Shown here: in pieces, positions 9,924 through 64,000 of the stretch
How positions within the stretch are numbered: the stretch's first letter is position 1
Layout of the letters: every line of letters begins with the position of its first letter
NCBI RefSeq assembly: GCF_000759715.1
Contig: NZ_BBLU01000002.1
Coordinates: 1 to 64,000 of the forward strand
Reading direction: 5' to 3'
Length of the DNA: 64,000 bases
Origin: Demequina mangrovi
GTDB lineage: Bacteria > Actinomycetota > Actinomycetes > Actinomycetales > Demequinaceae
Notes under the pieces: generated by a model
What the model saw: the letters and a program-made list of their open reading frames with translations, nothing else
The model's database searches: none
What the model was told of the DNA's origin: nothing
Translations under genes and position numbers: made by a program

Positions 9924-12581
9924 ATGCCTCAGACGTGGACCGGTCGCACCGGCTGGACGCTCACGTGCGACGGCACCCGCCTGACCCTCGCGGCGGACGG
10001 CCGCACGGAGACCTTCGACGGTCTCGAGGCCGCACGTATCGGCGTCTCCCGGCTGGGCCCGCGCCGCGCTCTCACCGTCGCAGCGACGGACGACGCGCCC
10101 GCGCGCCGGCTGCCCGGCCTCACCGGCCGCGACGCCTCGGAGATCACCGAAGCCGTCGCACGCATCGTCACCCGCGGGAAGCTCCGCGGCGCGCTGCTGC
10201 TCGCCGCCGAGCGTCGGCCGTACTTCGAGCGCCTGCTCGCGACGCGCGTCCGCAAGCAGCGGTGGATCGCCCACGACGACGCCGCCGCGATCCTCGCGGG
10301 TCTCCCCCGCCACGCGGACGTGCTCGCGCTCCTCACCCCGGCCGAGCGAGGTGGCCTCGAGACGCTCCTCTCGCCCGAGGAGCGCACGGCCCTCGCCTTC
10401 CTCGCGCAGGATCACCTCGCCCAGGTGAGCCGCGCGAACGACGAGATCCTCAGGCGCGAGCTCGCCACCGGCCGGCCGTTCTTCGCCCGCGTCGAGAAGT
10501 CGCCGCTCACCGAGGAGCAGGCACGCGCCGTCATCAGCCACGACAACAGGGTCCGCGTCATCGCCGCCGCCGGTTCCGGCAAGACCTCGGTGATGGTCGC
10601 GCGCGCCGCCTACGCGATCCGCCGCGGCTTCGTGCGACCCGAGCGCGTCCTCATGCTGGCCTTCAACGCGGATGCGGCGAAGGAGCTCCAGGAGCGCGTC
10701 GACTCGCGCCTCGGGGCGCTGGGGCTGCCCCACGCGGGCCTCAAGGCGAGCACTTTCCACTCGTTCGGGCTCGCGCTCATCGGCGAGGCGACCGGCCGCA
10801 AGCCGCGCATCGCGCCGTGGGTCGAGGGAGGCCGCGACGTCGAGAAGGTCCAGGAGATCGTCGACCGGCTGCGCGACCAGGACCTCGACTTCCGCTTCAA
10901 GTGGGACCTGTTCCGCCTGCTCTACGGGAAGGTCTCCGCAGCGGCGGACGGCGGCGAGCCAGACTCGTACGATCCGACGGCCAAGCGTGCCGGCTTCGGC
11001 ACGTACCGCGGCGAGACCGTCCGCAGCGAGGACGAGCGGCTCGTCGCTGACTGGCTGTTCCTCCACGGGGTCGACTACCGCTACGACGAGCCGTATCCGC
11101 GCAACGTCGCGGACCACGCGCACGGCCGCTACCGCGCCTCGTTCCACTACCCCGCCGCGGGCGTCTGGCACGAGCACTGGTCCGTCCGCGCCGACGGCTC
11201 CCCGGTCGAGGACGTGCGCGGCTACGGCGACGTCATGGCGTGGAAGCGCAAGGTGCACGCGGACCACGGGACGGCGCTCGTGGAGACCGCGTGGCACTCG
11301 ATCATGGACCACAGCGGCTTCGAGGCCCTCGCGCGGGACCTCGAGCGCCACGGCGTCGCCCTCGACTGGAACCCCGATCGACCGCTGCCGGGCGCCGAGC
11401 CCCTCGAGCACGAGCGTCTCGCACGGCTCATGCGCACCTTCATGTCGCATGTGAAGTCCGGCGCCGTCACCCGCGAGAGCCTGCGCGACCGCGTCGCGGC
11501 CAACCCCGCCTTCGACACCGCGCGCACGCGGCTCTTCGTCGACCTGTACTGGCGCATCCACGACGCGTGGCAGTCCGAGCTCGAGGCGACCCGCACCGTC
11601 GACTTCGACGACATGCTCCTCCAGGCCGCCGCGCTGGTCGAGCATGATCCACGCCTCGCCCGCTGGGACCTCGTCATGGTCGACGAGTTCCAGGACACCA
11701 GCCGGGCCCGCGCCCGCCTCACCAAGGCGCTCCTGCGCGATCGCGGCACGCATCTGCTGGCGGTCGGCGACGACTGGCAGGCCATCAACCGCTTCGCCGG
11801 CGCGGACCTCTCGGTCATGACGGACTTCGCCGCCTACTTCGGACCGGCGCTCACCCGCAGGCTGCAGACCACGTTCCGCACCACGCAGACCACGGCCGAT
11901 GTCGCGGGGCGGTTCGTGTCGCGCAACCCCGCGCAGATCACCAAGTCGGTGCGCTCGGCCCGGGGCGCGGGCGGTGCGCCCGTCACCGTCGTCCGGGTGG
12001 CCCGGCACGATGCGGTGCCCGCCGCGGTGGAGGCCCACCTCGCGCGGCTCTCCGCATCGTCCCGCCCGGCCGCCGCCGGGCGGACGACGGTCGACGTGCT
12101 CGGACGCTACGGCTTCGACCAGAAGCTCGTGCCCGCGCGGCGCTTCGACGGCCTGGACGTGCGCTTCCGCACCGTGCACCGGTCGAAGGGCCTCGAGGCG
12201 GACCACATCGTCCTGCCCAACGTCACCAGCGGCACGTACGGCTTCCCCAGCACCATCCCCGACGACCCGGTGCTCACGCTCGCGATGGCGGACGGCGACG
12301 CCTACCGCCACGCCGAGGAGCGCCGCCTGCTCTACGTCGCGCTCACCCGCGCGCGACAGACCGTCACCCTCGTCACCGTCACCGGACGCGAGTCGCCGTT
12401 CGTGCTCGAGCTGCTCGAGGATCCGGACGTCGAGGTCGTCGATGCCGACGGCGTCCCTGCGGGCGAGGTGCGGGTGTGCCCGGGCTGCGGCGAGGGCACC
12501 CTGGTCCGCCGTGACGGCCGCTACGGCGAGTTCTACGGCTGCAGCACGTTCCCCCGCTGCCACGAGACCGCGAGGGTCTAG
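9924..12581 (+). CDS. UvrD-family helicase (helicase IV-like) with C-terminal C4 zinc ribbon
   Basis: An 885-residue SF1A DNA helicase. An N-terminal domain of about 180 residues is followed by Walker A AAAGSGKTS (K220), DEFQD Walker B (D587-D591), VGDDWQAINRF, TTFRTT, VHRSKGLEADHIVLPN and LLYVALTRARQ. A helicase IV-type insertion (about 371-450, from ERLVADWLFLHGVDYRY to AWKRKVHADHGT) resembles a PD-(D/E)xK nuclease fold. The expected acidic residue in its YxPDF-like strand is a serine (S406), so nuclease activity is doubtful. A topoisomerase-type zinc ribbon ends the protein (C852, C855, C873, C879). It probably acts in DNA repair. Confidence 0.88.
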   Translation: MPQTWTGRTGWTLTCDGTRLTLAADGRTETFDGLEAARIGVSRLGPRRALTVAATDDAPARRLPGLTGRDASEITEAVARIVTRGKLRGALLLAAERRPYFERLLATRVRKQRWIAHDDAAAILAGLPRHADVLALLTPAERGGLETLLSPEERTALAFLAQDHLAQVSRANDEILRRELATGRPFFARVEKSPLTEEQARAVISHDNRVRVIAAAGSGKTSVMVARAAYAIRRGFVRPERVLMLAFNADAAKELQERVDSRLGALGLPHAGLKASTFHSFGLALIGEATGRKPRIAPWVEGGRDVEKVQEIVDRLRDQDLDFRFKWDLFRLLYGKVSAAADGGEPDSYDPTAKRAGFGTYRGETVRSEDERLVADWLFLHGVDYRYDEPYPRNVADHAHGRYRASFHYPAAGVWHEHWSVRADGSPVEDVRGYGDVMAWKRKVHADHGTALVETAWHSIMDHSGFEALARDLERHGVALDWNPDRPLPGAEPLEHERLARLMRTFMSHVKSGAVTRESLRDRVAANPAFDTARTRLFVDLYWRIHDAWQSELEATRTVDFDDMLLQAAALVEHDPRLARWDLVMVDEFQDTSRARARLTKALLRDRGTHLLAVGDDWQAINRFAGADLSVMTDFAAYFGPALTRRLQTTFRTTQTTADVAGRFVSRNPAQITKSVRSARGAGGAPVTVVRVARHDAVPAAVEAHLARLSASSRPAAAGRTTVDVLGRYGFDQKLVPARRFDGLDVRFRTVHRSKGLEADHIVLPNVTSGTYGFPSTIPDDPVLTLAMADGDAYRHAEERRLLYVALTRARQTVTLVTVTGRESPFVLELLEDPDVEVVDADGVPAGEVRVCPGCGEGTLVRRDGRYGEFYGCSTFPRCHETARV

Positions 12582-12671
12582 GCCCGTCGCGCGGACGCAC
12601 CCGATACAGTGCCGGGAGACGATGCGCGGGGCACCGCCGCATCGGACGCGAGGGGCTGAGGGGGAACGGCC

Positions 12672-13370
12672 ATGGAGCCGGAGATCATGGTGACGAGCGT
12701 GGTCGATGCGCTCGTCGAGGACCTGCGCCACAAGGTTCTCAGCGGCGAGCTCGCGCCCGGCACGCCTCTGACCGAGCTCGAGGTCGCGACGCGCTACGAC
12801 GTGGCGCGCGCGAGCGCTCGCGCCGCAATCGACCGTCTCACGGGCGAGAAGGTGCTGGTCCGCGCCAACTACAGGACCGCGCGCGTGATCGCCCTGGGCC
12901 CCGAGGACGTGCGCGACATCTATCGCACGCGCGCACGTCTCGAGTCCTCGGTGCTGCGCGAGCTGGCGCGCACGCGGCACGTCCCCGAAGAGGCCAGGGA
13001 GGCCAACGCTCAGCTCACCGCGCTCTGGGCGGAGCGCTCGCCGGGCAGGGTCGCTCCCGATATGCGTTTCCACACCAGCCTCGTGGACGCGGCCGGGAGC
13101 GAGCGCACCTCCGCGGTGTACCGCTCGCTGGCCTTCGAGACGCGGCTCTGCATGGCCCGTCTCCAGGTCAATCCGCAGCTGGACCCCGACGCCAACATCG
13201 CCGAGCACGCGCGCATCCTCGACCTCATCGCCGCGGGAGACGCCGACGGAGCCGCGGCGATGCTCGAGGAGCATCTGGCGCGTGCGCGCGAGCTGCTCGC
13301 GGCCAGCCTGGGCGGCGAGGCCGGCCCCGAGGCGAACCGGCCGTCGTCGGCGCTCCCGCCTGCCTCGTGA
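12672..13370 (+). CDS. GntR family regulator, FadR/FCD subfamily
   Basis: A 232-residue regulator. The N-terminal winged helix-turn-helix runs from DLRHKVLSGELAPG through TELEVATRYDVARASARAAI to residue 75. An all-helical FCD effector domain follows, with the metal-type ligands in DMRFHTSLV and EHARILDLI. Such proteins respond to small carboxylates or sugar acids. A GGGGGAAC ribosome site supports the ATG at 12672. A TACAGT -10-like element lies near 12604. No neighbouring catabolic gene identifies the ligand. Confidence 0.85.
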   Translation: MEPEIMVTSVVDALVEDLRHKVLSGELAPGTPLTELEVATRYDVARASARAAIDRLTGEKVLVRANYRTARVIALGPEDVRDIYRTRARLESSVLRELARTRHVPEEAREANAQLTALWAERSPGRVAPDMRFHTSLVDAAGSERTSAVYRSLAFETRLCMARLQVNPQLDPDANIAEHARILDLIAAGDADGAAAMLEEHLARARELLAASLGGEAGPEANRPSSALPPAS

Positions 13371-18051: not shown

Positions 18052-19479
18052 ATGGCGGGATCACCCGAGCGCGCGCCGGTCAAGCTGTCGCTGCTCACCA
18101 TGACCACGATGGTGGTCGGCACCATGGTGGGCGCGGGCGTCTTCACCCTCCCCCAGCGCTTCGCCGCCGCGACCGGCGTGAGCGGCGCGCTCATCGCGTG
18201 GACCATCGCGGGAGCCGGCACGCTCACCCTCGCGCTGATGTTCCAGGCCCTCTCGAACCGCAAGCCGCACCTCGACGCGGGCATCTACGCGTACGCGAAG
18301 GCGGGCTTCGGCGAGTACCTCGGCTTCTTCTCCGCCTTCGGCTACTGGGCGACCACCTGCGTGGGCAACGTCGCCTTCTGGGTGCTCATCATGTCGACGC
18401 TCGGCGGGCTGTTCCCGGCGCTGGGCGAGGGCGACACCATCCTCGCGGTCGCGCTGTCGACCGCGGGGCTGTGGGGCTTCTACCTGCTGGTCCGCCAGGG
18501 CGTGAGGGAGGCGGCCGCGATCAACCGCATCGTCACCTTCGCGAAGCTGGTGCCCATCCTGGTCTTCATCGTGATCGCGCTCTTCTACGTCGATCCCCAG
18601 GTGTTCGCCGACAACATGTCCGGACAGGGCGGTGAGCCGCTGTTCGACCAGGTCAAGGCGACGATGCTCGTCATGGTCTTCGTCTTTCTCGGCGTCGAGG
18701 GCGCGAGCGTGTACTCGCGGCACGCCAAGCGGCGCGAGGACGTGGGCCGCGCGACGGTCCTCGGCTACCTGAGCGTGTTCGCGATCTTCGCCTCGGTCAC
18801 GATGGTGTCCTACGGGATCATGCCGGTCGCCGAGATGGCGGAGCTGCGCCAGCCGTCGATGGCGGGCGTGCTCGAGGCTGCGGTCGGGGGCTGGGGCTCG
18901 GTCTTCGTCAGCGTGGGGCTCATCGTGTCGATCCTGGGCGCGTACCTCGCGTGGACGATGATCGCCGCGGAGCTGCTCTTCGTGGCCGCCAAGGACGGGG
19001 ACATGCCGCGGTTCCTCGCCCGGCAGTCGAGCCGCGACGTGCCGGTCGCGGCCCTCCTCACCACCTCGTGGCTCACGCAGGGGGTGCTGCTGGTGGTCCT
19101 GGTCTCCGCCGACGCCGTCAACTTCATGGTCGACCTCACGAGCGCGCTGTCGCTCATCCCGTTCCTCTTCGCGGCCGGGTACCTGCTGAAGATCGCGGCC
19201 CTGCGCGACGGCTATGACGAGGCCCGGTCCCGACGGCGGGAGCTGGCGCTCGGGATCCTCACGACCGCGTACGTGGCGTTCCTGCTGTTCGCGGCCGGGC
19301 TGACGTTCGTGCTGGTGTCCGCGATCATCTACGCCCCCGCGTCGATCCTGTTCATCATGGTGAGGCGCGAGCAGGGTCGCCGATGGTTCAGCCCGCGCGA
19401 GAGCATCATCCTCGCGGTGTCGCTCGCGGCGGCCGCCGTGGGCGCGGTGGGCCTCGCCACGGGCTGGCTCAGCATCTAG
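18052..19479 (+). CDS. APC-family amino acid permease/antiporter
   Basis: A 475-residue, 12-13-helix transporter of the amino acid-polyamine-organocation superfamily. The first helix carries VVGTMVGAGVFTLPQRFA, the glycine-rich substrate-binding break. Later helices and PHLDAGIYAYAKAGFGEYLG match the basic amino acid/polyamine antiporter (ArcD-like) group. Substrate is inferred only. GGAGGGAGGAGG precedes the ATG. A TACGTT -10 candidate lies at 18023-18028. It is divergent from the M28 peptidase, so peptide breakdown and amino-acid exchange may be paired. Confidence 0.87.
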   Translation: MAGSPERAPVKLSLLTMTTMVVGTMVGAGVFTLPQRFAAATGVSGALIAWTIAGAGTLTLALMFQALSNRKPHLDAGIYAYAKAGFGEYLGFFSAFGYWATTCVGNVAFWVLIMSTLGGLFPALGEGDTILAVALSTAGLWGFYLLVRQGVREAAAINRIVTFAKLVPILVFIVIALFYVDPQVFADNMSGQGGEPLFDQVKATMLVMVFVFLGVEGASVYSRHAKRREDVGRATVLGYLSVFAIFASVTMVSYGIMPVAEMAELRQPSMAGVLEAAVGGWGSVFVSVGLIVSILGAYLAWTMIAAELLFVAAKDGDMPRFLARQSSRDVPVAALLTTSWLTQGVLLVVLVSADAVNFMVDLTSALSLIPFLFAAGYLLKIAALRDGYDEARSRRRELALGILTTAYVAFLLFAAGLTFVLVSAIIYAPASILFIMVRREQGRRWFSPRESIILAVSLAAAAVGAVGLATGWLSI

Positions 19480-19553
19480 CGGCGCGGCGCGTCCGGCCTG
19501 GCAGCAGCACGATGCGCGGTTAGGTTCGGGTCACCCGGATCGAAGGACGCGCC

Positions 19554-20111
19554 ATGGAAACGACACCTCCCGGCTTCTTCAGCCGTCACCGCGACGAGCT
19601 GATCCTCCAGGCGATCGGCAGCCTGGTGCTCGGCATGATCGTGTCGCTCGCGCTCTACGTGGTCGACCAGATGCGCGAGGACGCCCGCAACGCCCGCGAC
19701 GAGTCGCTCGGGAACTCGCTGTTCGTGCGGCAGGCGGTCATGGCCGACCGCGACATCCTCCCGTTCTCCGCGCTGTACCTGGCCGACGCGCAGCTGAGCG
19801 GGCTGGACCTGTCCGGCGCCGACCTCTCCGACGCCGTCCTCGCGGGCGCCGAGCTCAAGGAGACCGACCTGTCCGGCGCCGACCTGTCCGAGGCGGACCT
19901 CTCCGGCGCGGACCTCAGCGGAGCCGTGCTCACGGGCGCGGCGCTCGCGGAGGCGAACCTGTCGGACGCGGATCTCAGCGGCGCCGATCTCTCGGGCGCG
20001 GACCTCACCCAGGCGATCGCGGACGGCGCGACCTACGACGCCGGCGACCCTCCCCTGGGCGCCGACGCGCTTCTGACCTCGCTCGCGGTCGGCGACGAGG
20101 ACGACGACTGA
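19554..20111 (+). CDS. Membrane-anchored pentapeptide-repeat protein
   Basis: A 185-residue protein. One membrane helix lies at residues 16-39, then a short charged linker, then about 17 pentapeptide repeats of the A(D/N)LSG type from residue 73 to 157, predicted to form a right-handed quadrilateral beta-helix. A short acidic tail ends in DEDDD. Pentapeptide proteins can mimic DNA or scaffold membranes, and no function can be read here. A TAGGTT -10 candidate is at 19521-19526, with GAAGGA as ribosome site. It converges with the DUF2235 gene, 9 nt apart. Confidence 0.85.
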   Translation: METTPPGFFSRHRDELILQAIGSLVLGMIVSLALYVVDQMREDARNARDESLGNSLFVRQAVMADRDILPFSALYLADAQLSGLDLSGADLSDAVLAGAELKETDLSGADLSEADLSGADLSGAVLTGAALAEANLSDADLSGADLSGADLTQAIADGATYDAGDPPLGADALLTSLAVGDEDDD

Positions 20112-29898: not shown

Positions 29899-31233
29899 TC
29901 ACAGCACCGACAGGTACGTGTCGAGCTCGTACGGCGTGACCTGGGCGCGATACGCCTCCCACTCGGCCCGCTTGTTGCGCAGCACGAAGTCGAAGACCCG
30001 CTCCCCCAGCGTCTCGGCCACCAGCTCGGAGCGCTCCATCTCGGCGATCGCCTCCGCGAGCGACGTGGGCAGCGGCTCGTAACCGAGCGCGCGACGCTCG
30101 GCGTTGGAGAGCTCCCACACGTCGTCCTCGGCGCCCTCGGGCAGCTCGAGGCCGTCCTCGATGCCCTTGAGGCCCGCCGCGAGCAGCACCGAGAACGCGA
30201 GGTACGGGTTCGCGGCGGAGTCCATGGCCCGGTACTCGACCCGCGCGGACTGGCTCTTGCCGGGCTTGTGCACGGGTACGCGCACCAGCGCGGAACGGTT
30301 GTTCGAGCCCCAGCACACGTAGGACGGAGCCTCGGCGCCGCCCCAGAGTCGCTTGTACGAGTTGACGTACTGGTTGGTGATCGCGGTGATCTCAGGGGCG
30401 TACTTGAGCAGGCCCGCCATGAACTGGCGCGCGGTGACCGAGAGGCCCATCTCCGCGCCGGCCTCGTGGAACGCGTTGCGGTCCCCCTCGAACAGGCTCA
30501 TGTGCGTGTGCATGCCGGAGCCCGGCGCCTCGAACAGCGGCTTGGGCATGAAGGAGGCGAACACGCCCTGCTCGAGCGCGACCTCCTTGATCACGGTGCG
30601 GAACGTCATGATGTTGTCGGCCGTGGTGAGCGCGTCGGCGTACCGCAGGTCGATCTCGTTCTGACCGGGCCCCGCCTCGTGGTGGCTGAACTCGACCGAG
30701 ATGCCCATGTTCTCGAGCATCGTGATCGCCTCGCGGCGGAAGTTGTGCGCCGTGCCGCGCGGCACGTTGTCGAAGTAGCCTGCGCGGTCCACCGGGACCG
30801 GCTGCTGGCCGGTCTCGAACTGCTTGAACAGGTAGAACTCGATCTCGGGGTGCGTGTAGAAGCTGAAGCCCTGCTCGGACGCCTTGTCCAGCGTGCGCTT
30901 GAGCACCTGACGGGGGTCGGACAGCGCCGGCTCACCGTCGGGCGTGTAGATGTCACAGAACATGCGCGCGGCGCCCTGACGCTCGCCGCGCCACGGCAGG
31001 ATCTGGTACGAGGCCGGGTCCGGCTTCGCGATCATGTCCGCCTCGTACACGCGCGTCAGGCCCTCGACGGCCGAGCCGTCGAAGCCGATCCCCTCGGCGA
31101 ACGCGTTCTCGAGCTCCGCCGGCGCGATCGCGACCGACTTGAGGATGCCGAGCACGTCCGTGAACCAGAGCCTGATGAAGCGGATGTCGCGCTCCTCGAC
31201 GCTGCGGAGCACATATTCCTGCTGCTTGTCCAT
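29899..31233 (-). CDS. glnA2: Glutamine synthetase, GlnA2 type (GSI-alpha-like)
   Basis: A 444-residue glutamine synthetase paralogue, shorter than GlnA. It keeps EIEFYLF, FSHHEAGPGQNEIDLRY and GSGMHTHMSL. It has no [10 protein letters not shown] adenylylation loop, the matching region reading VWELSNAERRALGYEPLP, so it should escape GlnE control although it shares an operon with glnE. The actinobacterial order glnA2-glnE is conserved. The start at 31233 lacks a strong ribosome site, and CAGGAT 7 nt upstream could be a -10 of a leaderless transcript. Confidence 0.93.
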   Translation of the reverse strand: MDKQQEYVLRSVEERDIRFIRLWFTDVLGILKSVAIAPAELENAFAEGIGFDGSAVEGLTRVYEADMIAKPDPASYQILPWRGERQGAARMFCDIYTPDGEPALSDPRQVLKRTLDKASEQGFSFYTHPEIEFYLFKQFETGQQPVPVDRAGYFDNVPRGTAHNFRREAITMLENMGISVEFSHHEAGPGQNEIDLRYADALTTADNIMTFRTVIKEVALEQGVFASFMPKPLFEAPGSGMHTHMSLFEGDRNAFHEAGAEMGLSVTARQFMAGLLKYAPEITAITNQYVNSYKRLWGGAEAPSYVCWGSNNRSALVRVPVHKPGKSQSARVEYRAMDSAANPYLAFSVLLAAGLKGIEDGLELPEGAEDDVWELSNAERRALGYEPLPTSLAEAIAEMERSELVAETLGERVFDFVLRNKRAEWEAYRAQVTPYELDTYLSVL

Positions 31234-31295
31234 GCCGCCTATCCTGCACCATCCATGTGACGATCGTGTGTCCCGTCGCCTCGTGCCGCGCGCCC

Positions 31296-31301
31296 TACGC
31301 T
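31296..31301 (+). promoter_or_regulatory. -10 box of leaderless nadE
   Basis: TACGCT (TAnnnT) followed by 6 nt and the nadE ATG. There is no ribosome-binding purine run, so a leaderless transcript is predicted. Confidence 0.6.
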
Positions 31302-31307
31302 TGACCC

Positions 31308-32954
31308 ATGTCCGACCTCCGCATCGCACTCGCCCAGATCAACACCTGCGTGGGCGACATCGCTGGTAACGCCGCGCTCATCCTCGACCGGTGCCGCGCC
31401 GCCCACGCTCTGGGCGCGCACGTGGTCGCGTTCCCGGAGATGACCACCACCGGGTACCCGATCGAGGACCTCGCGCTGCGCTCGAGCTTCCAGCGCGCCG
31501 CGGCGCGCGCGGTCGACGAGATCGCCGCCGCGCTCGACGCGGAGGCGCTCGGCGAGCTCACGGTGATGATCGGCACGCTGGGCGTCTCGCAGGCGGGGCG
31601 GCCCTTCAATCAGGCGGTCGTGATCCAGGGCGGCGCCGTGGTCGCGCGCTACAACAAGCACCACCTCCCCAACTACGGTGTCTTCGACGAGCGGCGCATC
31701 TTCGCCTCGGGCGAGGACCCCTGCGTGGTCTCCCCCGGCGGCTCGCCCGTGGGCATCGCGATCTGCGAGGACATCTGGCAGGACGGCGGCACCGTCGCGC
31801 AGCTGACGGGCCAGGGCCTGCGGCTGCTCGTGGTCCTCAACGGCTCCCCGTTCGAGGAGGGCAAGGGCCACACCCGCGTCGAGCTCGCGGCGCGCCGCGC
31901 CCGCGAGGTCGGGGCGCCGGTCGCCTACGTCAACCTGTGGGGCGGCCAGGACGACCTCGTCTTCGACGGCCACTCGTTCATCGTCTCCGCCTCGGGCGAG
32001 GTGGTCGCCTCCGCGCCCGGCTTCTCCGACGCGATGATCGTGTGGGACGTGCCCGCCGCGGGCACGCCGGCGCTCGTCTCGGGCATCGCGCCCGCCGAGG
32101 ACCTCGACGAGCAGACCTACTGGGCGTGCGTCACCGGACTGCGCGACTACGTGGTGAAGAACGGCTTCCGCAGCGTCATCCTCGGGATGTCCGGCGGCAT
32201 CGACTCGGCGCTCACCGCCGCGATCGCCGCCGACGCGATCGGCGGGGAGAACGTGGTCGGCGTGTCGATGCCGTCGGAGTTCTCCTCCGACCACTCGAAG
32301 GACGATGCGGCGGACCTCGCCAAGCGCATCGGCGCCGACTACCGCGTCGAGCCGATCGCCCGGCTGGTCGACGGGTTCCAGGACCAGCTCGCGCTCACCG
32401 GCGTCGCCGAGGAGAACCTCCAGGCGCGCGTGCGCGGCGTCATCCTCATGGGGCTGTCGAACCGCGAGGGGCACCTGGTGATCGCGCCGGGCAACAAGAG
32501 CGAGCTCGCCACCGGCTACGCGACGATTTATGACGCGGGCTCGATCGGCGGCTTCGCCCCGCTCAAGGACCTCGACAAGACCCGCGTGTGGGAGCTCGCC
32601 CGTTGGCGCAACGCCTACGCGGAGTCGCGCGGCGAGGTCGCGCCGATCCCCGAGAGCTCGATCACCAAGCCGCCGAGCGCCGAGCTCCGCCCCGGCCAGA
32701 CCGACCAGGACTCGCTCCCCGACTACGCGCTGCTCGACGAGGTGCTCGACGCGTACGTCGAGCACGCCGAGGGCCGCGAGGAGCTGCTCGCGCGCGGCTT
32801 CGAGCCCGCGGTGGTGGACAAGGTGCTGTCCCTCGTGGACCGCGCCGAGTGGAAGCGCCGCCAGTACCCGCCGGGCGCCAAGGTGACGGCGCTCGCCTTC
32901 GGCCGCGACCGCCGCCTGCCGATCACCTCCCGCTGGCGCGAGCTCGAGGGCTGA
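31308..32954 (+). CDS. nadE: Glutamine-dependent NAD+ synthetase
   Basis: A 548-residue fused enzyme making NAD+ from deamido-NAD+, ATP and glutamine. The N-terminal nitrilase-fold glutaminase has E44 (FPEMTT), a lysine in YNKHHLPNYGVFDE and nucleophile C153 (GIAICEDIW). The C-terminal synthetase has the ATP-pyrophosphatase loop SGGIDSA from S295 and ends with FGRDRRLPI. This is the short two-domain form rather than the ~680-residue mycobacterial type. Confidence 0.96.
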   Translation: MSDLRIALAQINTCVGDIAGNAALILDRCRAAHALGAHVVAFPEMTTTGYPIEDLALRSSFQRAAARAVDEIAAALDAEALGELTVMIGTLGVSQAGRPFNQAVVIQGGAVVARYNKHHLPNYGVFDERRIFASGEDPCVVSPGGSPVGIAICEDIWQDGGTVAQLTGQGLRLLVVLNGSPFEEGKGHTRVELAARRAREVGAPVAYVNLWGGQDDLVFDGHSFIVSASGEVVASAPGFSDAMIVWDVPAAGTPALVSGIAPAEDLDEQTYWACVTGLRDYVVKNGFRSVILGMSGGIDSALTAAIAADAIGGENVVGVSMPSEFSSDHSKDDAADLAKRIGADYRVEPIARLVDGFQDQLALTGVAEENLQARVRGVILMGLSNREGHLVIAPGNKSELATGYATIYDAGSIGGFAPLKDLDKTRVWELARWRNAYAESRGEVAPIPESSITKPPSAELRPGQTDQDSLPDYALLDEVLDAYVEHAEGREELLARGFEPAVVDKVLSLVDRAEWKRRQYPPGAKVTALAFGRDRRLPITSRWRELEG

Positions 32955-61522: not shown

Positions 61523-61594
61523 GCCCGCCAACCTAGCGCGGGCGGTGCGCCCCGGGCGCGCGTTTCGGCCGGGCACGCGCTGCCAGTGGGCCGT

Positions 61595-62125
61595 TCAGTG
61601 CGGACCGAACTGCGACCTCCGCAGGGTGGCCGGACCGGCGGGTGGGGCACCCAGCTGCGAGGAGAACTCCCGATCGGCGAGCAGGTGCGCAACCATCTCC
61701 GCCCTGCTCGAGACCGCGAGCTTCGCGAACACCCGTCGCAGGTGAGTCGAGACGGTCCACACGCTGATCTCGAGCGCGTTCGCGATCGCCTGGTTGGTGC
61801 GGCCACGAGCGACCATGACCGCGACCTGCTTCTCTCGCGGGCTGAGCGCGACGAGCAGCGACGGTCGATGCTCGACCACCACGCAGTGCATTCCACCGAC
61901 CACGACGTCCAGGAGGACCCCGTCGCCACGATCGAGGTCGGGCTCCGAGCTCCGCAGCAAGCCGATGATCTCCTCGAGCGCGCTCAGGAGGAGCCCATGT
62001 TCATCCCGTTGCTCGGCGACCGCATCGACATCGCGACGTCGCGTCGGCGCACGCAGATCGGTCGCCACGCCGTCGGCGAAGCCACCGACGAGCGAGACTC
62101 GGCGGAAGGACTCACCCTGCGTCAT
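61595..62125 (-). CDS. LuxR-family transcriptional regulator
   Basis: A 176-residue protein. An N-terminal region of about 90 residues has no recognised sensor domain. A LuxR helix-turn-helix follows: LSPREKQVAVMVARGRTNQA and IANALEISVWTVSTHLRRVF. There is no receiver domain, so it is not a classical response regulator. A short run of six guanines precedes the ATG as a weak ribosome site. A TAGGAT -10 candidate lies about 165 nt upstream (62291-62296, minus strand). Confidence 0.82.
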   Translation of the reverse strand: MTQGESFRRVSLVGGFADGVATDLRAPTRRRDVDAVAEQRDEHGLLLSALEEIIGLLRSSEPDLDRGDGVLLDVVVGGMHCVVVEHRPSLLVALSPREKQVAVMVARGRTNQAIANALEISVWTVSTHLRRVFAKLAVSSRAEMVAHLLADREFSSQLGAPPAGPATLRRSQFGPH

Positions 62126-62389
62126 CGTCGACCCCCCGGTACGTGACTGGTGCGGTGAACACGTCTGTGCTTCGCCCCGCCGTCCGAGCGGACGAGCCCA
62201 TGATCCGGGCCGCCTGCCGCGCGCTCCGGGGAGGCGTCGCTCGCTGCAAGTCGCACGCCTGGCCGTGGTGCCTCGGCAGGCGTTCTCTGCATCCTACCCA
62301 AGGGCCGCTCCGTCGTCCCCGGCCCCGCACGCGGCGGCCGACGGGCCCACTGCGCAGCGCGCCACGTCGAGGCACCCCCGCCTCGCCCC
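62126..62389. other. 264-bp spacer without a supported gene
   Basis: GC-rich DNA between the LuxR gene and the unrecognised operon. Plus-strand frames here are Arg/Ser/Ala-rich with no ribosome site or family match. Only a -10 candidate for the LuxR gene (62291-62296, minus) is visible. Confidence 0.5.
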
Positions 62390-63607
62390 TCACCGCCGGC
62401 TACCGGGCGGACGCTTGGACCGCGCGGAGGGATCGCCGCGCCGCTGCGGGACCGGACGCGTCGACCGCCGCGATCCGGAGACGGGCCCGCGCTCGGCCCT
62501 CCGAGCCGTGGCTCCGGAAGCCCCGCTGCGCTCCCAGGGCGTCACGCTGCGCGCGCTCGCGCGAGGTGCGAGGCTCATCGCCTGCGCAGACGTCAGCCAC
62601 TCCTCCGCGGGCTCGGCGATATGGTTGAGCAGCGCCTCGAACTGCGGCCGGTTCGACTCGAGGATGTGGCCGGACGCGAGCCACCGGAGCACATCGCGCC
62701 CGGTCTCGGCCATGCGCTGGCGAGGCGAGGTCTGCAGCCGCTCGTCGAAGTAGCGGACGAGGATCTCGTCGATCACATCCCACGCGTTGTCGGCACCGAA
62801 CAGCTCCATCACGTCCGGCGATCCGAGGATCGCGAAGCACTCCTCCAGCACCTGCATCAGCTCGATGCGCATGACGTTGAGGTGGCCGAACGACGCGAAC
62901 TTGAGGTTGTTGCGAAGGTCCAGTCCTGCGCGCCGGACCACGGCGATCGACCCGAAGCTCGGGTCGTTCGCCCCCTGCCGCATGACCTCGGAGATGCGCT
63001 TGTCGCGCCAGAACAGGGTGACCTGGTTGACGAAGTGCCCGAACAGCCGATGGAAGTCCGTGTTCGGCCGACTCTGGCCGGCACCGAGTCCACGGCCGTA
63101 ACCCAGCACACGGCGGTATCCGTCGAGCCGATCGCGCCGCGTGTAGCGCAGCACATCGCGGCGATCGAACTGGTAGAGCCGGTACGCCCCCTGCCCGGAG
63201 GACAATCGCACCGCGCCCGCCTCGAAGAGCTGCTTGAGCTTCTGGACGACCTTGAAGACCCCGATCTGCTCATGCTGGTAGATGTAGTAGAGATCCCCGA
63301 CCGCGGCGATGCGCTCCGAGTTCACCTGATCGTCGTAGCGGACCACACCGTTCGGCACCCGCGTCTCGCCCAGCGTGAGCGCCGCGTCGGGTCCGATGCC
63401 GATGAGCCCGCCGAAGCCCCCGTCGGGTGGGGCGGGCCGCTGCCCCTCCGCGGCGACCAGGCTGTCGACGTGCTCGTCGATCTGCCGGTGGAGCTCCTCG
63501 GCGATCACCGGATTCGAGGCGAGGCTCCCCGCCAGCTGCTCCGCGATCCGTGCGCGGAGCGCGTTGACTCGATCCAGTCGCTCCTGCTGCTCGCGCTGCG
63601 TGGGCAT
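62390..63607 (-). CDS. Unrecognised 405-residue protein with basic C-terminal tail
   Basis: I do not recognise this family. An N-terminal coiled-coil-like helix (residues 1-55) is followed by a possible winged-helix-like part (IGVFKVVQKLKQLFEAGAVR, GAYRLYQFDRRDVLRYTRRD). A long helical domain (about 175-335) holds DFHRLFGHFVNQVTLFWRDK and NNLKFASFGHLNVMRIELMQ. The last 60 residues are an Arg/Ser/Pro/Gly-rich basic tail, possibly nucleic-acid binding or poorly conserved. GAAGGGAAG precedes the ATG. It follows the coiled-coil gene by 6 nt. Confidence 0.7.
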   Translation of the reverse strand: MPTQREQQERLDRVNALRARIAEQLAGSLASNPVIAEELHRQIDEHVDSLVAAEGQRPAPPDGGFGGLIGIGPDAALTLGETRVPNGVVRYDDQVNSERIAAVGDLYYIYQHEQIGVFKVVQKLKQLFEAGAVRLSSGQGAYRLYQFDRRDVLRYTRRDRLDGYRRVLGYGRGLGAGQSRPNTDFHRLFGHFVNQVTLFWRDKRISEVMRQGANDPSFGSIAVVRRAGLDLRNNLKFASFGHLNVMRIELMQVLEECFAILGSPDVMELFGADNAWDVIDEILVRYFDERLQTSPRQRMAETGRDVLRWLASGHILESNRPQFEALLNHIAEPAEEWLTSAQAMSLAPRASARSVTPWERSGASGATARRAERGPVSGSRRSTRPVPQRRGDPSARSKRPPGSRR

Positions 63608-63613
63608 GGTGGA

Positions 63614-64000
63614 TCACTTCCCTTCGGTCTTCTGCTCGGCTACGGCGAGCGCGGTCCTCGCCGCCTCGGCCTCGTCCAGTGAGCGCTCGAGTGCGGAGAC
63701 CGCGTCGATGAGCTCCTGAGCCAGGTCGCGCAGCGGGGGGTTGTCGGAGCTGCCGACCACCTGGGCCGCGATCTCCTCCTGATACCGCGCGCGGGTGTCG
63801 GGGCGCAGGTTCTGGCGCTTGAGCGCCGCCTCCGACTTCTTGGAATCCGCCATCCGCGAGGCGAGCGCCTCGCTCGCGAGCCTGACACGCTGCTTGGCGT
63901 CCTCCGCAGCGGAGCTGGTGCGGTCGACGTCCGCGCGCAGCGTCGCTAGCACCGCGGCGTCGCTGTCGTCGATCTCGACGACTGAACCGTCGCCGACGTC
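63614..64000 (-). CDS. Coiled-coil protein, 5' end beyond the right edge
   Basis: The frame is open from the window edge to a stop at 63614 (at least 128 residues). It includes an acidic VVEIDDSDAAVL and long heptad-like helices rich in Ala, Glu, Arg and Lys (ASRMADSKKSEAALKRQNLR, ELIDAVSALERSLDEAEAAR) ending KTEGK. An internal GTG at 63952 could be a start but the frame clearly continues upstream. It is co-transcribed with the next gene. The family is not recognised. Confidence 0.6.
   Translation of the reverse strand, partial: DVGDGSVVEIDDSDAAVLATLRADVDRTSSAAEDAKQRVRLASEALASRMADSKKSEAALKRQNLRPDTRARYQEEIAAQVVGSSDNPPLRDLAQELIDAVSALERSLDEAEAARTALAVAEQKTEGK

Follow-up and report, generated by a model that had tools for sequence, protein, structure and literature searches.

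A candidate effector module with a predicted zinc peptidase and acidic-repeat proteins in Demequina mangrovi and its recurrence across bacterial phyla

Six genes, named here B to G, form together with a LuxR-type regulator gene one operon-like block in the actinobacterium Demequina mangrovi, and F and G are its end. The block lies at the right edge of the analysed window, i.e., the whole stretch of 64,000 nucleotides that starts contig NZ_BBLU01000002.1 (296,820 bp). The acidic-repeat proteins B and C, the predicted zinc peptidase D and the proteins F and G recur together across phyla with a patchy spread. Conserved in this way and unmatched in the libraries searched, the block looks like an unnamed system. 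The explanation favored here, with a probability of roughly 40%, is that B to G constitute an effector module in which D would mature the masked B and C proteins and the neighboring wall hydrolases or nucleases would be exchangeable. It is preferred because the site of D is intact, B and C combine acidic and cationic parts, and wall hydrolases are fused or near in several lineages.

According to the ORF reading of the contig, the genes are transcribed on the minus strand in the order B, C, D, E, F, G and then the LuxR gene. B (386 aa, 68469-69629) and C (261 aa, 67601-68386) encode the acidic-repeat proteins, D (444 aa, 66283-67617) the predicted helical zinc peptidase and E (65731-66279) a protein of 182 aa; these four genes lie beyond the window and are given in its numbering, continued. 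F (706 aa, with a start codon of our own choice) spans 63614-65734, and its last 128 codons and the stop are inside the window (63614-64000). G (405 aa, 62390-63607) is helical, belongs to no known family and has a basic tail, which is modeled with very low confidence. Spacers of 82 nt and 3 nt separate B from C and D from E, respectively, and the overlaps amount to 17 nt between C and D and 4 nt between E and F. The stop codon of F starts at 63614 and leaves 6 nt (63608-63613) to G, whose ATG is preceded by the RBS-like AAGGGAAG. A first-pass annotation had described G and the reading frame upstream as a two-gene operon. Its length for G, the 6-nt spacing and the statement that neither protein is of a known family agree with the coordinates and the profile searches, but the pair is actually the end of the six-gene block with its LuxR gene: extension along the contig turns the upstream frame into the 706-aa F and continues the operon to B.

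The LuxR regulator reported beside the two genes is real. It is a GerE-only protein of 176 aa (61595-62125, minus strand; Pfam GerE E 2.1e-16), 57-59% identical to those in Nocardioides and Mycolicibacterium, and is likely the regulator of the module. The gap between this gene and G (62126-62389) is in many relatives the site of an M20 peptidase gene (H). In the window genome it contains neither H nor a remnant of it, and the M20 genes elsewhere in this genome are distant ones only. In the unannotated loci the genes are our own ORF picks, and the starts of several homologues were set by alignment or by eye.

In two congeners the left-hand alignment with the window contig extends to 61540, close to where a histidine kinase gene starts, and the alignment resumes at an SNF2-type helicase, the 8.4 kb between having no counterpart. 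Since the kinase-side and helicase-side alignments stop at its edges, the insert is placed at about 61541-69960 (61541-64000 within the window) and comprises the LuxR gene and B to G. At the same site, different genes take up 2.1 and 3.4 kb in the two congeners. The G+C content of the insert (71.2%) equals that of the flank (71.3%), and therefore composition shows no sign of recent arrival. Counting the own genome, the histidine kinase is present in 8 and the helicase in 18 of the 25 genomes of the genus sample. The helicase was considered as a module member and rejected, being common in the genus and outside the insert; its PADLOC match is therefore off-module.

The genome-wide counts are lower bounds, since few first-look candidates were scored per genome (4 to 7 in the phylum, cyanobacterial and Thermomicrobiales samples): no G is found in any of the 24 congeners, two order-mates giving distant matches only (39 genomes searched); D has one full match, that of the window genome itself, in the 396 genomes of the phylum sample, plus a weak one of 45 residues; and G occurs in 5 of the 244 genomes of a cyanobacterial sample, centre genome counted, and in 1 of the 251 genomes of the phylum sample of a Thermomicrobiales genome, namely the centre genome itself. 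A scan with D led to 23 loci, from isolates of Actinomycetota and Cyanobacteriota and from MAG contigs that include Melainabacteria, Chloroflexota, Thermomicrobiota, Verrucomicrobiota and Acidobacteriota, and a Paraburkholderia plasmid copy extends the module to Pseudomonadota. The module spans three phyla by isolates or plasmids and four more by MAG contigs only. Among 17 checked genomes of these D loci, 16 also have G, in two cases on a contig other than that of D. The tree of D mixes phyla: the cyanobacterial sequences make up two separate groups and one long-branch row, and one group (100/100 support) includes Mycobacterium, acidobacterial and Thermomicrobiales MAGs. MAG contigs may be mis-binned, and the plasmid and isolate rows weigh more. 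A phage origin was also considered and dismissed, G being absent from 50,697 phage records and the PHROGs matches to B to G being weak (best E 0.0039, for B).

The gene set was tabulated in 29 loci (23 retrieved with D, four retrieved with G, one plasmid and the own locus). B/C proteins are found in 28 of them, the single miss being a contig end, F in 26 and E in 19. G, whose presence like that of D is partly due to selection because the loci were gathered with D or G, is found in 23; five of its six misses are contig ends, and the sixth is an acidobacterial MAG (L020) whose locus has room and whose genome is without G. The M20 peptidase accompanies 16 loci and an amidohydrolase 7. A LuxR match is present in 20, some perhaps by chance as the domain is common, and in one locus (L025) it falls in an ORF that by eye is response-regulator-like. 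Gene order is mostly kept, one locus (L023) having B-D and F-G-H on opposite strands, and the LuxR gene is divergent in some loci. An accessory operon with a conserved partnership had been suggested in the first-pass annotation, and the table bears this out: the partnership is conserved in the neighborhoods, and no housekeeping homology was found.

The 16 homologues of G are 43-71% identical to the window protein, with many invariant residues in the 17-sequence alignment; this identity shows G to be a real gene and excludes chance. The long basic tail noted earlier is present in the window protein, but the same alignment shows that it is not conserved among the cyanobacterial homologues. A winged-helix region had also been proposed for G and finds no support, as there is no Pfam match of any kind and the AlphaFold2 model, itself weak (mean pLDDT 65.5), is helical with zero strands. 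The profile of G against PDB sequences returned weak rows only, the best being a designed helical protein (E 0.0088), and the fold search gave nothing under E 0.59. In F, the N-terminal part is conserved among relatives and the C-terminal part is variable. No Pfam family is common to 20 F members, one of which has an amidohydrolase end, and the C-terminal piece inside the window, which the first-pass annotation had described as a coiled-coil protein cut by the edge, has sub-threshold Pfam matches only (Fib_alpha, SNARE, Pepco). In the acidobacterial locus L020 an F-like start stands in frame with an amidohydrolase end (11840-13189), either by fusion or by assembly error.

The residues H223, E224 and H227 of D (the HExxH motif) and E266xxxD270 are invariant in 23 of 23 aligned sequences, the next invariant glutamate standing 39 residues after the second histidine. 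They sit on helices 219-232 and 264-277 of the predicted model, which is mostly helical and confident (pLDDT 83.8, pTM 0.84). On these sequence features D is predicted to be a zinc metallopeptidase, putatively gluzincin-like. Structure comparison with the PDB by Foldseek gave nothing under E 0.001, angiotensin-converting enzyme (ACE) chains recurring at E 0.43 and above. VIA-align reached Z values of at most 8.0, mainly for helical bundles over residues 26-140, a result that rules no family out, and the D profile against PDB sequences gave weak rows only (best E 0.079). In all four Kribbella loci an Amidase_2 domain is fused in frame to the start of D (E 3e-22 to 2.6e-21).

The motif of the window genome reads HEVSHNLQ, i.e., HExxHxxQ, and the glutamine is kept in 22 of the 23 aligned sequences and is H in L024. 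HExxHxxQ is the signature given for the PVC-metallopeptidases in the available part of PMC3482391, and the fit is compatible with an effector set for an extracellular contractile injection system (eCIS), in which B/C and the neighbors would be cargo of a tail-like particle encoded elsewhere in the genome and D the releasing peptidase. The window genome is alone among the 25 of the genus sample in having a Phage_sheath_1 match and alone among the same 25 in having G; B has a tape-measure match at chance level (PHROGs E 0.051). On the other hand, a Pfam scan of this D to E 1 returned Zn_peptidase at 0.25 alone and no DUF4157-type match. The sheath matches are on another contig, and no tail gene is seen by eye among the ORFs of the locus. 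Moreover, a Phage_sheath_1 match is lacking in 10 of 17 genomes that carry the module, several being drafts, and a search with a positive control revealed no relative of B, D, F or G and no signature protein among the 2,075 ORFs of the sheath neighborhoods of seven genomes. Such a set is decidedly unlikely. As a separate observation, contig C33 of the window genome holds an eCIS-like locus (~274,000-300,000) with two Phage_sheath_1 matches and, by eye, tube-, spike- and baseplate-like ORFs.

The effector module proposed here draws in addition on the charge layout of B and C. These proteins (231-490 aa in the examined set) consist of E/F/D/Y-rich repeats followed by a cationic amphipathic segment (in Lentzea, for example, FFKRIGRGLRRFGRIASR), a conserved domain of helical appearance and a basic tail. 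The layout was assessed in 26 proteins chosen to cover phyla from 42 clustered ORFs and later loci. With a charge-plus-hydrophobicity score and cut-off that were picked after B/C had been seen, 23 of the 26 scored at least 9.5, compared with 24 of a control set of 185 other ORFs of 200-520 aa taken from these loci. Among the 24 are one B protein and several ORFs that by eye resemble membrane proteins. The helical moment exceeds that of composition shuffles at p <= 0.06 in 23 of the 26 segments, and the other three are not clearly above the shuffles (p 0.10, 0.12 and 0.56). The acidic-repeat filter also caught an ORF at 29902-31338, which by eye is glutamine-synthetase-like and was discarded as a false positive.

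The size of B and C weighs on the possibility of a RiPP-like or signaling pathway of peptide maturation, in which D would mature B/C as precursors, and trimming or recycling of the released peptide, a signal or a metabolite and not lytic, would fall to the M20 peptidase and the amidohydrolase. The M20 gene near 16 of the 29 loci, the amidohydrolase near 7 and the LuxR match in 20 are in line with it, and the pairing of a zincin with a small, rapidly diverging precursor is described in the available part of PMC7159879. However, proteins of 231-490 aa with a long conserved domain are not short precursors, the window copy has no adjoining M20 or amidohydrolase gene, no modification enzyme is recognised in the locus, and the wall-lytic fusions and neighbors are left unexplained. 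This pathway is considered unlikely. Most loci hold two or three B/C paralogues, and together with the acidic low-complexity domains of B/C and the high conservation of G this could also suit a structural or storage assembly, i.e., a protein body or compartment made of acidic-repeat B/C and helical F/G with D as the assembly protease. The lytic fusions and neighbors argue against such an assembly, as does the fact that G resembles no solved protein by sequence or fold, and it is very improbable.

The reading of B to G as an effector module leans further on the linked genes. In one genome of the cyanobacterial sample, G is followed by a gene for a Peptidase_M15_3 plus PG_binding_1 protein. In other cyanobacteria the products of the genes that follow G have a QWLFEAP start or a variant of it, near the LFEAP/IFEAP start of some B proteins of cyanobacteria and a Thermomicrobiales MAG; one of these neighbors has a sub-threshold GIY-YIG match (E 0.0096) and the remaining ones are without a known domain. 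A DNA-pattern scan of the 244 genomes for WLFEAP gave 5 matches, three of them 0.1-1.1 kb after G, versus 7 for the reversed control pattern in the same genomes; WLFEAP is therefore not commoner than chance, and only its position is telling. Distant relatives of D occur on rhizobial and Paraburkholderia plasmids (profile E 3.6e-22 to 7.3e-41). Three of them adjoin proteins that are B-like by eye, of which the B-domain profile picks up a single Paraburkholderia protein (E 0.0013). About 3 kb after the distant D, Ensifer has a PG_binding_1 plus GIY-YIG protein and Rhizobium CCGE532 a protein with a glucosaminidase-type C-terminal domain (E 2.4e-44, below the whole-length cut-off of the model). 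A clear lytic or nuclease domain is present in 3 of the 11 scanned neighbors, two of the three beside a distant D, in a count confined to loci with the module or a distant relative of its genes. Four neighbor proteins compared with PDB sequences gave nothing useful, and no cargo gene stands beside the copy of the window itself. In some copies, M15, GIY-YIG or glucosaminidase ends are joined to QWLFEAP/EFE-type starts, a layout that may correspond to the shared N-terminus and differing C-termini of polymorphic toxins.

On rhizobial plasmids, distant D-like peptidases are also found beside CHAT, C25, PLD and patatin genes (L033, 7755-9176; L034, 7788-9176). CHAT, PLD and patatin domains are often met in conflict systems. 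A PLP-enzyme-like gene is possible by eye in rhizobial versions of the module (L118, 13311-14405; L119, ~18411-19625). The CHAT, PLD and patatin neighbors, and the rarity and patchiness of the module, would accord with intracellular defence, whereby D would activate membrane-disrupting B/C on phage infection and the infected cell would be killed or arrested. A defence-type module had been suggested at the outset and gains no support from the present searches. PADLOC, which offers no convincing match for B to G, has no hit to B, D, F or G, and its scores for C and E are trivial (best 0.022); Pfam reveals no sensor or nucleotide-signaling domain; and G is in none of the phage records. The wall hydrolases better suit an attack on other cells, and the linked genes are more suggestive of wall-lytic effectors. 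Intracellular defence is quite unlikely.

From the observed operon and its conservation, the invariant catalytic-type residues of D, the charge layout of B/C and the lytic or nuclease neighbors of some copies, we infer all biochemical steps of the effector reading as well as its target and its export route. The module would be mobile and its target probably other bacteria. After the operon is switched on by LuxR, B and C would be made in a masked form, the acidic E/F/D repeat region preceding the cationic amphipathic helix and the conserved helical domain. Then, D would cut B/C, and possibly the neighboring cargo too, and the membrane-active part would be freed. F, G and E may be a scaffold or export complex, and the exchangeable neighbors with an acidic or LFEAP-type N-terminus would be wall hydrolases or nucleases. 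Export machinery is not recognised in the locus, and the M20 peptidase and amidohydrolase of many copies are left unexplained by the effector reading. A bolder version, which is doubtful yet holds a real chance, is an undescribed class of inter-bacterial weapon, a horizontally moving set of wholly new protein families that is controlled by LuxR. In it, membrane-active proteins with an acidic shield would be unmasked by the helical zinc peptidase, and an F/G scaffold would deliver exchangeable wall hydrolases and nucleases sharing an acidic or LFEAP-type entry signal. If the effector reading is true, bacteria would possess a new means of storing lytic proteins, unmasking them and delivering them, and the N-terminal signature could mark new antibacterial enzymes.

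No protein from B to G passes a Pfam or NCBIfam cut-off or scores convincingly in PHROGs or PADLOC, and searches of open-licence PMC papers turned up no description of the module or of its sequence motifs. With no library match and no description found, the families and the gene set are called new, and several known systems serve for comparison. D resembles ACE (M2) in being a mostly helical HExxH peptidase, with ACE chains among the top Foldseek rows; unlike ACE, to which the match is not significant (best E 0.43), D has a glutamate 39 residues past the second histidine and the invariant ExxxD. A Burkholderia pyrrocinia cluster (pBPJTT, 385000-434000), itself uncharacterised, includes two distant homologues of G (E 1.6e-22 and 4.5e-15 with the profile) along with a large N-acetylmuramoyl-L-alanine amidase of 1255 aa and an S8 peptidase. 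Unlike the module, this sister cluster has, on searching, no relatives of B, D or F and instead has four other proteins, similar by eye and of no known family. Pieces of the same cluster are present in an order-mate of the window genome.

As far as the available part of PMC3482391 describes them, the polymorphic toxins with PVC-metallopeptidases share with the module a zincin-type HExxHxxQ with a downstream glutamate, diverse lytic or nuclease linkages and a presence in many phyla. They differ in that D is a separate, mostly helical protein of about 440 aa (amidase-fused in the four Kribbella loci) and not an N-terminal toxin domain, in that D has no profile match and no tail genes are recognised beside it, and in that the module adds the families B, C, E, F and G. 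The systems of a zincin with an FxSxx or acidic-type precursor, in the available part of PMC7159879, contain VMAP or FtsH ternary components, none of which is recognised here, and B/C are long proteins; the module is like them in that the candidate substrate beside the metallopeptidase varies and is partly acidic. The claim of newness covers the protein families and their combination, and the proposed mechanism may turn out to be a familiar one.
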